A DNA stretch of 64,000 nt from Haliclystus octoradiatus. Taxonomy: Eukaryota > Cnidaria > Staurozoa > Stauromedusae > Haliclystidae. The stretch is from contig OU744451.1 of NCBI GenBank assembly GCA_916610825.1, positions 1,488,001 through 1,552,000 of the forward strand. The letters are read 5' to 3'. Position numbers and translations under genes: made by a program. Under the pieces are notes generated by a model that saw only the letters and a list, made by a program, of their open reading frames with translations, was not told where the DNA came from and searched no databases. Positions 38,801 to 44,800 of this stretch are shown here, piece by piece. Each line of letters opens with the position of its first letter. Within the stretch, counting starts at the first letter, position 1.

Positions 38801-41800
38801 CATTGTGTTATAACAATAAGCGTGCACGTGATCCTAAGTGCGTGGCGCCTGCCGGTCATGTTTGCTCCTTTAACTAATTCGAGTTAGTTTTAGAAGATCA
38901 GTTTATGAATGTTTGCAAAGTTTATGAACTCAATAAATTTTTTCTCAGAGGTAATTTTGAAAAGGCTAGGATTCCACTATACGAGAAAGCCATCCAAGCG
39001 TAATGATTTGTGAACCAGTTAGGCCTTTGAATTACACTATCGCAAAGTAATTCGGTATGCCAGGGTTTATATAGCCAAGTAAAAATCTACTCTGCAACGA
39101 ACCTGGGGTAAATATTTATCTGGTACGTATTTGCTGTCAAGCGGTGTAATTTATTCGCATCAAATACAATGTTATTGTTGCCCATTCCATCGCGTTGCCA
39201 TTCACAGATTTTGTTTGTAGCTACGAGGAAGCCAATCAGCAGCTAGCGAATACGATTTATTGAACGCGATGCCATTTGACCGATTTATTCGTCAGAGTTG
39301 TGATAGTGTATTCCAACAATCAATCCAGTATAATTTTAAGTCTGATGGTGCAATACTTATCCCGTACAATTTCTATCCGGTACAGTGGAATCCCCAGCTA
39401 AATCATCATTTTGGAGAATGAAGTACTATAGTACACTTAAACCTGTTATAATGGTCACCTCTATACAGCGGTTACCTGTCTATAGTGGTGACTCTTGCAA
39501 TGTCTAAAATAGTATTTTCTATTGAATAAAACCTGTATATAAAGGCCACCTGTATATAGAGGTTAATTTATCTATGTCTCGTAGCTGGCTGTTATATACA
39601 GGTCAGGTTTAACTATACATCACAAAAAGAAATAAAATTAACTCCCAGAATTCTTCAACTTACTTTGCTTCATCTGGATTGGCTAACTTAGCTTGTGTTT
39701 GTTCATTCGCAAGTCGAATCATAACTGTATCATCAATCTTATAAATCGTATGGCCACCAATCAAGGCAACACTGAAATATTAAAGTATAACATTTGTGAG
39801 ATGAAATATATTAAGAACATACAATAACATGAAGATTCCCTGATAATTAATATTGCCTGACTATTTGATATTTATGATTATTGAAGTGACGCTTGCGTGT
39901 TTCAAATTTGAATCTGATTTTAAAGTTTTAAAATTTATACCATAATATTTTTACATAACAAAAAAACTTAAGGCAATTCAGGTGAGACAATTGATTATAA
40001 TTTATTGGAAGTGGTATGGTATAAGGATGAATGAAAACGTTTAATTTTATAGACCGAGCGCGACAGAACTAAAACGGCAGGTTTCTTCAGGCAACTTGAA
40101 ATTTACATAAAATGTTCATAAAAATACAATCAACGCTTGCCTGTTTCTTGTTTTAGTCAAATTTTATTGTGGAGCTCACCAACGATAAATTTATAAATCA
40201 TTTCATGGTCAGAGCCCTCTTAACTCATACATTTCGAGTTTTCGTTATGCTTCTACAGATTCGCAAAATCATTGGAAAACAAAACAATCAAACACCATGA
40301 AGCTCACATCCACAGCATTTTCACAAAATGATAAGAAGGCTTTGACCGTGAATCATGAAATATAAATTGGATTTTTGAAGGGTTTACAATAAAATTTGAT
40401 CAAAACAAGAAATAGGGAATTGTTTAGCATATTTTATGAACACTTTTATGTGATTTTCAAGTTGCCCAGAGAAACCTGCTGTTTTAGTTCTATGGTGCTT
40501 GGTCTATTAGTCTTACAGTATAAAGCCTAAATTAGTTTATACAGAATTCCAGATGGCATGCATTCATAAAATTACATACTTTGACTATTTAAACAAAGAA
40601 AGTTGAATTGCAATATCAGTGTTTACTCGTCCTCTATTTGCTAATTCGTTACAAGTACGTTATCTGATGTGTTAGAATCTGTATACCTGATTTATTCAAT
40701 TCACACAATGTTATAACGACATCCGATATATAATATCATCTGATCTATATAGCCCAAAATCAATATGTATAGCTTTATCCAACATGGTTCCTAACCAACC
40801 ACAGTTTGGGAATATATGTAACAATTTCTTTCAAAACGTAATGTAGACGGTGTCGCCCTACCAAAGGCACCCGTACCACTCCTCTATTTCTAGATGAATG
40901 GCTTTTTTCGCTAAGAGCAATGATTTCAAACGCTCTTTAGCGATCTGAACCGCGACACTGCCGATCAATTTCAACAGATTTTATGGCAAATTGGTCTCGA
41001 CTGTCAATGCGCAACAATGCACCGCAGCTACTCACAATGCAATTCCCTCTGGACCATTCCATTTGCCATCCTCAGATGGTACTCATTTGATGTTTCAGAT
41101 AAAGTCAATGCTGGGTTGACCTTGGGGGGATTTGAACCAATTTCAACAATTTCATAATTTAATTTAGTATAGGCCTATTGTGACTTATCAGAATGTATCC
41201 TTACCGTCTACGCTTTGATATCAAAACAATGTAGTAACCTTCTAAGAATTTGACAAATCCTGAAAATAAACCATTGAATGAATATAAATGTAAAGTATAC
41301 CGCTGTAAAGCGCTTTTGAGCAAAATTTTGGAAAAAGCGCTATATAAATAATGTATTATAATTATTATATTATTATTATTATTATTATTATTATTATTAT
41401 TATTATTATTATTATTATTATCATTATCATTATCATTATCATTATCATTATCATTATCATTATCATTATCATTATCATTATCATTATCATTATCATTATC
41501 ATTATCATTATCATTATCATTATCATTATCATTATCATTATCATTATCATTATCATTATCATTATCATTATCATTATCATTATCATTATCATTATCATTA
41601 TCATTATCATTATCATTATCATTATCATTATCATTATCATTATCATTATCATTATCATTATCATTATCATTATCATTATCATTATCATTATCATTATCAT
41701 TATCATTATCATTATCATTATCATTATCATTATCATTATCATTATCATTATCATTATCATTATCATTATCATTATCATTATCATTATCATTATCATTATC

Positions 41801-44800
41801 ATTATCATTATCATTATCATTATCATTATCATTATCATTATCATTATCATTATCATTATCATTATCATTATCATTATCATTATCATTATCATTATCATTA
41901 TCATTATCATTATCATTATCATTATCATTATCATTATCATTATCATTATCATTATCATTATCATTATCATTATCATTATCATTATCATTACATTATCATT
42001 ATCATTATCATTATCATTATCATTATCATTATCATTATCATTATCATTATCATTATCATTATCATTATCATTATCATTATCATTATCATTATCATTATCA
42101 TTATCATTATCATTATCATTATCATTATCATTATCATTATCATTATCATTATCATTATCATTATCATTATCATTATCATTATCATTATCATTATCATTAT
42201 CATTATCATTATCATTATCATTATCATTATCATTATCATTATCATTATCATTATCATTATCATTATCATTATCATTATCATTATCATTATCATTATCATT
42301 ATCATTATCATTATCATTATCATTATCATTATCATTATCATTATCATTATCATTATCATTATCATTATCATTATCATTATCATTATCATTATCATTATCA
42401 TTATCATTATCATTATCATTATCATTATCATTATCATTATCATTATCATTATCATTATCATTATCATTATCATTATCATTATCATTATCATTATCATTAT
42501 CATTATCATTATCATTATCATTATCATTATCATTATCATTATCATTATCATTATCATTATCATTATCATTATCATTATCATTATCATTATCATTATCATT
42601 ATCATTATCATTATCATTATCATTATCATTATCATTATCATTATCATTATCATTATCATTATCATTATCATTATCATTATCATTATCATTATCATTATCA
42701 TTATCATTATCATTATCATTATCATTATCATTATCATTATCATTATCATTATCATTATCATTATCATTATCATTATCATTATCATTATCATTATCATTAT
42801 CATTATCATTATCATTATCATTATCATTATCATTATCATTATCATTATCATTATCATTATCATTATCATTATCATTATCATTATCATTATCATTATCATT
42901 ATCATTATCATTATCATTATCATTATCATTATCATTATCATTATCATTATCATTATCATTATCATTATCATTATCATTATCATTATCATTATCATTATCA
43001 TTATCATTATCATTATCATTATCATTATCATTATCATTATCATTATCATTATCATTATCATTATCATTATCATTATCATTATCATTATCATTATCATTAT
43101 CATTATCATTATCATTATCATTATCATTATCATTATCATTATCATTATCATTATCATTATCATTATTATTATTATTATTATTATTATTATTATTATTATT
43201 ATTATTATTATTATTATTATTATTATTATTATTATTATTATTATTATTATTATTATTATTATTATTATTATTATTATTATTATTATTATTATTATTATTA
43301 TTATTATTATTATTATTATTATTATTATTATTATTATTATTATTATTATTATTATTATTATTATTATTATTATTATTATTATTATTATTATTATTATTAT
43401 TATTATTATTATTATTATTATTATTATTATTATTATTATTATTATTATTATTATTATTATTATTATTATTATTATTATTATTATTATTATTATTATTATT
43501 ATTATTATTATTATTATTATTATTATTATTATTATTATTATTATTATTATTATTATTATTATTATTATTATTATTATTATTATTTTATTATTATTATTAT
43601 TATTATTATTATTATTATTATTATTATTATTATTATTTTTATTATTATTATTATTATTATTATTATTATTATTATTATTATTATTATTATTATTATTATT
43701 ATTATTATTATATTATATTATATTATTATTATTATTATTATTATTATTATTATTATTATTATTATTATTATTATTATTATTATTATTATTATTATTATTA
43801 TTATTATTATTATTATTATTATTATTATTATTATTATTATTATTATTATTATTATTATTATTATTATTATTATTATTATTATTATTATTATTATTATTAT
43901 TATTATTATTATTATTATTATAATAATAAAGATAGATTTATCTATCGTCAGATGTGATAGTGCTCAATACCGATTAAACATTGGCAGAGCTGTAATACAT
44001 AAGGATGGTGACTGAGTCAAAGAAAACACATTCTTAATTTCTGTTACTATAGTTTCACGCAGTGTGCGATCATCAGACAGTTGATACTATATTGTATTGT
44101 ATGTATCAACTGATGTATCAACTGATGTATCAACTGATGTAATGCTCAATACCGATTAAACATTGGCAGAGCTGTAATACATAAGGATGGTGACTGAGTC
44201 AAAGAAAACACATTCTTAATTTCTGTTACTATAGTTTCACGCAGTGTGCGATCATCAGACAGTTGATACTATATTATATTGTATGTATCAACTGTCTGAT
44301 GATCGCACACTGCGTGAAACTATAGTAACAGAAATTAAGAATGTGTTTTCTTTGACTCAGTCACCATCCTTATGTATTATTATTATTATTATTATTATTA
44401 TTATTATTATTATTATTATTATTATTATTATTATTATTATTATTATTATTATTATTATTATTATTATTATTATTATTATTATTATTATTATTATTATTAT
44501 TATTATTATTATTATTATTATTATTATTATTATTATTATTATTATTATTATTATTATTATTATTATTATTATTATTATTATTATTATTATTATTATTATT
44601 ATTATTATTATTATTATTATTATTATTATTATTATTATTATTATTATTATTATTATTATTATTATTATTTTTATTATTATTATTATTATTATTATTATTA
44701 TTATTATTAGTTATTAGTTATTAGTTATTAGTTATTATTATTATTATTTATTATTATTATTATTATTATTATTATTATTATTATTATTATTATTATTATT

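Follow-up and report, generated by a model that had tools for sequence, protein, structure and literature searches.

A 290-unit ATTATC array in a FIG4 intron of Haliclystus octoradiatus, probably grown from the ATT tail of a LINE

Introduction

Intronic repeats in which a variant motif is enclosed by its parent motif are known from human spinocerebellar ataxia type 37 (SCA37, in DAB1) and familial adult myoclonic epilepsy (FAME). SCA37 alleles, as laid out in the available part of PMC8773600, read (ATTTT)60-79(ATTTC)31-75(ATTTT)58-90, and the proposal given there is that the parent repeat lengthens and that a T>C change in the last T then follows; the SCA37/FAME repeats sit in Alu elements at all loci but FAME7, with that of FAME1 in antisense orientation (PMC8773600). 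Here we describe an array of similar layout in the staurozoan Haliclystus octoradiatus, contained in a stretch of 64,000 nt that we refer to as the window (assembly GCA_916610825.1, contig OU744451.1, positions 1,488,001 to 1,552,000 of the forward strand; coordinates below are those of the window unless a locus is named). A block of 290 ATTATC hexamers, bordered on both sides by (ATT)n, lies within an intron of FIG4 and follows the 3' end of a long interspersed nuclear element (LINE), from whose tail it probably grew.

The LINE Dong shows a preference for TAA repeats. In the accessible text of PMC3774820, (TAA)n precedes its 5' end. The likeness to the present locus is that a mobile element goes together with TAA/ATT repeats; the difference is that (ATT)n here follows the LINE's own 3' end. 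RTE-clade LINEs in Lepidoptera produce microsatellite families (PMC2887409): in the part of that work available to us, 5'-truncated LINE 3' ends with simple-repeat tails seed microsatellites genome-wide, as the copies described below appear to do, with the differences that the tails in this genome exceed a hundred units by a wide margin, some with a secondary hexamer expansion, and that a clade was assigned only for the lepidopteran elements. The LINE-tail motif is also present in a salamander primer in the available portion of PMC3002275, probably by coincidence.

Anatomy of the array and its host intron

Direct reading and run-length analysis resolve the hexamer block (41417-43161, plus strand) into (ATTATC)95, starting at 41417, a 5-base unit ATTAC at 41987-41991, and (ATTATC)195 at 41992-43161, giving 290 full units whose sole 1-bp break is the T missing from the short unit; on the FIG4 strand the block reads as (GATAAT)n. 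Its perfect period-6 runs measure 574 and 1176 bases, which rules out a chance origin, such runs reaching at most 15 bases in 20 mononucleotide shuffles of the window minus 41001-45000. Open reading frames (ORFs) crossing the array, one of them of 868 aa, were dismissed as mechanical readings of the repeat.

The block is one component of a longer composite. In plus-strand order, a strongly 5'-truncated LINE 3' end (41299-41362, antisense to FIG4) is followed by (ATT)17 (41369-41419, the last ATT being shared with the opening hexamer, as its first half), the hexamer block, and a right-hand parent repeat (43162-43919) composed of (ATT)141 and then (ATT)17, (ATT)23 and (ATT)66 with short interruptions, so that hexamer and flanking (ATT)n together form a block of ~2.55 kb. 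Beyond this lie a 455-bp multicopy element (43920-44374) and a second (ATT)n array of ~0.54 kb (44375-44909), which has a 295-bp perfect run and an interrupted remainder. A preliminary description of this DNA, made from its letters alone, had reported about 290 copies with one visible 1-bp break at 41421-43165; count and break are as we find them, and that span is the same block read in another phase. It missed the flanking (ATT)n and the LINE-tail context.

The same description placed the array in a FIG4 intron, and we arrive at the same location from the order of the coding pieces, their match to FIG4 and the in-frame splice signals around the array. FIG4 lies on the minus strand, where probe sequences located six coding pieces in correct order (two weak probe matches, at 53499 and 12003, were set aside). 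The aligned part of one exon occupies 47753-47851; the exon before the array occupies 46704-46830, its start not fixed and its donor GT at 46703-46702; a 55-nt exon follows at 41205-41259, the intron ending in AG at 41260; the aligned parts of a further exon after the array and of the one beyond it, placed like the first by the probes and the joined translation, lie at 39663-39770 and 38550-38606. The sixth piece (35538-35594) falls in an open stretch (35079-35624) with FIG4 SacI-domain coding sequence (Syja_N, E 3.6e-7; FIG4 chain 7k1w_F, E 3.3e-15). The joined translation aligns with 7k1w_F over 161 residues (E 7.5e-60; next best SAC1, 3.3e-5), and the splice signals give an in-frame junction between the end of one exon at 46704 and the start of the next at 41259. 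The array-bearing intron (41260-46703) thus measures 5444 nt, of which 41364-44909, with the 455-bp element included, makes up 65%; the acceptor lies downstream of both array and LINE tail, 108 nt from the former and 39 nt from the latter.

A LINE tail as the probable source of the ATT repeat

Of 56 candidate matches to the sequence at 41299-41362, 40 were scored, and these include 39 other, dispersed copies that match at 83-98%, over 40-79 bases at the query end or up to query base 202. Every one of the 29 copies fetched passes into an ATT tract at one common position (AATGT|ATT or a slightly different sequence). Its longest pure run varies from 3 to 189 units and reaches at least 10 units in 17 of the 29; a lone ATC unit is present in six, and a single copy (L055) carries a hexamer block, (ATT)4-GTT-(ATTGTT)14, before returning to ATT. 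Copies with pure ATT, with ATT plus one ATC and with ATT plus a hexamer block form a visible series of stages. At two further loci (L062 and L088) a similar tail was seen by eye before another array of the same locus.

Homology among the copies extends up to ~1.5 kb upstream of the tail in progressively fewer of them, as expected of 5'-truncated LINE copies. Three long stretches were fetched, and in two of these a reverse transcriptase domain (RVT_1) lies upstream of the tail (E 2.2e-31 in L091, 3.9e-18 in L092, the two scanned; the third, L093, lists other ORFs). Judged by this coding sequence, the element behind the ATT tail is a LINE, which may belong to the L2/CR1 clade. By its ORF list, L092 also holds a 1450-aa retroelement-like ORF (2960-7312) between two LINE-like pieces.

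Hexamer classes across the assembly

The assembly is strikingly rich in ATT: a perfect 159-bp probe, (ATT)53, has 214,802 placements, and the genome is therefore prone to ATT expansion. The boundary between ATT and the hexamer occurs 35 times, grouped into 30 loci that include the FIG4 locus; the 29 others, with three additional five-unit hexamer loci, provided the 32 comparison loci used below. A more elaborate example of such arrays is L074, a mixed higher-order repeat of ATTATC, ATC and AGTTTATCAT.

Within this background the FIG4-intron block is the longest ATTATC block of the assembly. Of 307 placements of 31 perfect ATTATC units, 230 fall in it; the next runs have 66 (L081), 54 (C6:15774697-15775020, derived from the listed placements rather than fetched), 39 (L078) and 36 units (L066), and the two placements left unaccounted for are too few to hold a longer run.

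A comparison of ATTATC with its sisters bears on the origin of the variant. We counted genome placements of five perfect units for all nine hexamers that differ from doubled ATT by one substitution (those for ATTACT, ATTAGT and ATTAAT being reversed-pattern control columns assigned to sister classes by rotation). The three transitions hold the first three ranks: ATTGTT with 1706 placements, ATTATC with 778 (282 within the window, 496 outside) and ATTACT with 269. The six transversions total 220, namely ATTCTT with 120, ATTATG with 89, ATTATA with 8 (the same arrays matched on both strands), ATTAGT with 3, and ATTAAT and ATTTTT with none. Three given classes would take the top three of nine with a chance of 1 in 84, and the ranking follows transition over transversion, that is, mutation bias. 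At 31 units, counts were taken for two classes, ATTATC (307 placements, 77 of them outside the window) and, as control, ATTACT (28); an ATTGTT run of ~45 units is visible in the five-unit listing.

Proposed origin of the array

The explanation that best accommodates these observations, and one in which we place considerable though not complete confidence, is a LINE-tail microsatellite that underwent one T>C change and then hexamer slippage, probably without selective consequence. The tail sequence and its dispersed copies point to insertion of a LINE in antisense orientation relative to FIG4 and 39 nt before the acceptor, which would have left ~64 bp of the 3' end together with the usual ATT tail. 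Slippage would then have turned the tail into a microsatellite of (ATT)n, just as at further copies of this LINE, and a single T>C transition at the final base of an ATT unit would have created the ATTATC dimer unit. This unit would have expanded as a hexamer to 290 copies, the parent (ATT)n remaining on both sides, and a multicopy palindromic element now stands between the hexamer-bearing block and a further (ATT)n array. Either slippage or unequal exchange presumably drove the expansion. Most probably the array is neutral and has been tolerated owing to its intronic position and to the absence of AG, and the presence of just one GT, on the FIG4 strand. A very young expansion had been offered as one option in the preliminary description; our account agrees with it as regards expansion, and the array may be young.

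Several observations weigh against this account. The FIG4 block is an outlier, with a perfect run of 195 units against 66 for the next best, and neutral drift must explain this by chance. A target-site duplication was sought by comparing the 45 bp before 41299 with the 45 bp after 44909, and no common word of at least 6 bases was found; AATAAA is the only common word when 43919 is taken as the right border, the true right border of the insertion not being fixed. Our confidence in the LINE-tail explanation is slightly reduced by this absence. The figure for the ATT tract leans towards ATT, since the last letters of the query were themselves ATT-like and the fetched copies leave out 10 of the 39 others that were scored, seven of which end before ATT. 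Among the 32 comparison loci only three have a LINE-like tail motif near the longest hexamer (control windows: 10 of 646); a general origin of ATTATC arrays from LINE tails is therefore unsupported, and other seeds must exist. The sister-hexamer comparison is a rank argument and not a count of events, as placements are not independent (one long array gives many).

The proposed route from LINE tail to hexamer array has close counterparts in the human expansions, within what the available part of PMC8773600 sets out. In both, a variant repeat is enclosed by its parent within an intron (both flanks here being (ATT)n), the final base of a unit changes from T to C (here ATT to ATC), and the seed is the simple-repeat stretch of a retroelement, which at FAME1 is antisense to the gene, as at FIG4. 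The differences lie in the unit, a pentamer (ATTTT/ATTTC) there as opposed to a trimer parent and a hexamer variant built of one changed and one unchanged trimer here; in the seed, an Alu poly-A there and a LINE ATT tail here; and in length, 290 variant units here versus 31-75 for SCA37, with FAME1 examples of up to 458. The human alleles cause disease, whereas no disease is known for the FIG4 array. The array resembles an SCA37/FAME-type insertion without being a member of that class, whose repeats are pentanucleotides lying in an Alu at all known loci but one, and which is further marked by unstable alleles and RNA-level toxicity.

Taken alone, the FIG4 array is an overgrown microsatellite, and its value is that the intermediate states are still visible: the order proposed for the human intronic repeat disorders (lengthen, substitute, expand the variant) becomes testable in a genome with tens of ATTATC loci.

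Possible effects on splicing

We next consider whether the array is tolerated but not silent, the transcribed repeat lowering or shifting splicing of the next exon through its length or through the LINE tail near the acceptor. The repeat itself offers little purchase. On the FIG4 strand its composition excludes AG, with the result that the 2552-nt array (41368-43919) contains no AG and one GT, and the hexamer block lies within a 2602-nt AG-free intron stretch (the maximum in window positions 1-41200 is 252 nt); growth of the array would therefore leave acceptor choice undisturbed. The repeat RNA has little structure: (GAUAAU)20 does not outdo its shuffles in folding (z 0.61; 144 of 200 shuffles fold at least as well), which disposes of an RNA hairpin, and the best folding energy is 0 for both (AAU)40 and (AUUAUC)20. 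The antisense LINE tail is a different matter, contributing three upstream AGs at 43, 53 and 80 nt from the acceptor, each frame-shifting if used, and these AGs would be the most concrete route to any effect of the insertion. The short distances of array and tail from the acceptor and a layout like that of SCA37/FAME alleles (available part of PMC8773600) also favour such an effect; against it, both native splice sites, acceptor and donor, are intact, as is the reading frame, and normal splicing of expanded spinocerebellar ataxia type 10 (SCA10) pre-mRNA is reported in the same source. On balance we regard an influence on splicing as unlikely.

A broader proposition is that this genome runs the pathway proposed for SCA37/FAME (parent lengthening, single substitution, variant expansion) at tens of ATTATC loci, and probably at far more when the sister motifs are counted, and that the FIG4 array, as an extreme product of it, changes FIG4 splicing or dosage with allele length in an animal that tolerates this. 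We consider it more doubtful still; if true, it would offer a model outside humans, arisen in nature, of how intronic variant-motif expansions are born and tolerated.

Fidelity of the assembly and the GATA sites

Low-complexity arrays of such length are hard to assemble, and the present one is known here from the assembly alone, such that true alleles could be shorter or mixed and the 290 units partly artefactual. The ordered substructure, the unique 1-bp break and the distinct flanks speak against this, as do the numerous further long arrays of this assembly, both ATT and hexamer, which differ in composition, and we hold an assembly error to be very unlikely.

In the preliminary description the hexamer was read as a GATA-factor site, TGATAA within the consensus WGATAR, with a homeodomain-type core alongside, and recruitment or titration of factors, or phasing of nucleosomes, was suggested. 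The match is real, at one per unit, and gives the block 289 WGATAR matches on the minus strand and none on the plus strand (527 in the window, both strands); ATTATC is the only one of the nine sister hexamers to create the site, and in five-unit placements it exceeds the remaining seven, standing second, not first, behind ATTGTT. A GATA-factor or homeodomain platform or sponge, in which ~290 TGATAA sites would affect FIG4 or its neighbourhood, could draw on these matches, on the exceptional length of the array and on the excess of ATTATC over ATTACT at 31 units; it is nevertheless highly improbable and we reject it as the main reading, because GATA-driven arrays should favour ATTATC over GATA-free sisters and the GATA-free ATTGTT exceeds it, the nine-sister ranking fits transition bias, and the arrays that flank the block or are related to it consist of (ATT)n, which offers no GATA site. 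The case is also a warning: mutation alone can account for a transcription-factor word that recurs hundreds of times.

The neighbouring palindromic element

The 455-bp element to the right of the array (43920-44374, plus strand, borders approximate) is multicopy, without known coding capacity, and resembles a palindromic variant of a miniature inverted-repeat transposable element. Internally it consists of direct copies at 43958-44112 and 44140-44294 and an inverted arm at 44285-44379. Forty of 859 candidates were scored, giving 39 other copies; identity is 100% across 162-164 bases in 33 of those listed and 97-99% in the others; the near-identity of copies of its 164-bp stretch 43925-44088 looks like the trace of a very recent burst. 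In 13 of the 39 an inverted arm starts at nearly the same place.

At 24 element-end junctions inspected by eye (23 fetched and that of the window), we found ATT at three, TAA at 10, TA-rich sequence at seven and neither at four. ATT or TAA thus occurs at only 13 of 24, which leaves a strict (ATT)n-targeting transposon unsupported; the element either prefers simple repeats rich in AT or generates them from its end sequence. The right-hand (ATT)n may accordingly reflect landing of the element in the array or repeats that it brought along, and L094 has a similar layout with (ATT)n on both sides of the element. Its end motif lies near nine of the 32 hexamer loci and its body motif near five, under permissive settings and uncontrolled, and nothing is concluded from this.

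Other features of the window

An 11-bp palindrome-like unit, of which AGTTCATGAAC is an example, forms arrays at 7616-7762, 35625-36144, 59055-59138 and 62459-62574, the second of these adjoining the FIG4 SacI-domain piece. A 73/74-bp tandem repeat family (CACCTGTATATAGTGGTCAC...) is found in both orientations, at 1879-2224, 17016-17267 and 30512-30668. An 87-bp unit (29 codons) is repeated five times at 15301-15732, where an open frame of 153 aa is kept. On the same strand as FIG4, an inositol polyphosphate kinase domain (IPK, E 4.4e-25) is encoded at 4987-5361.

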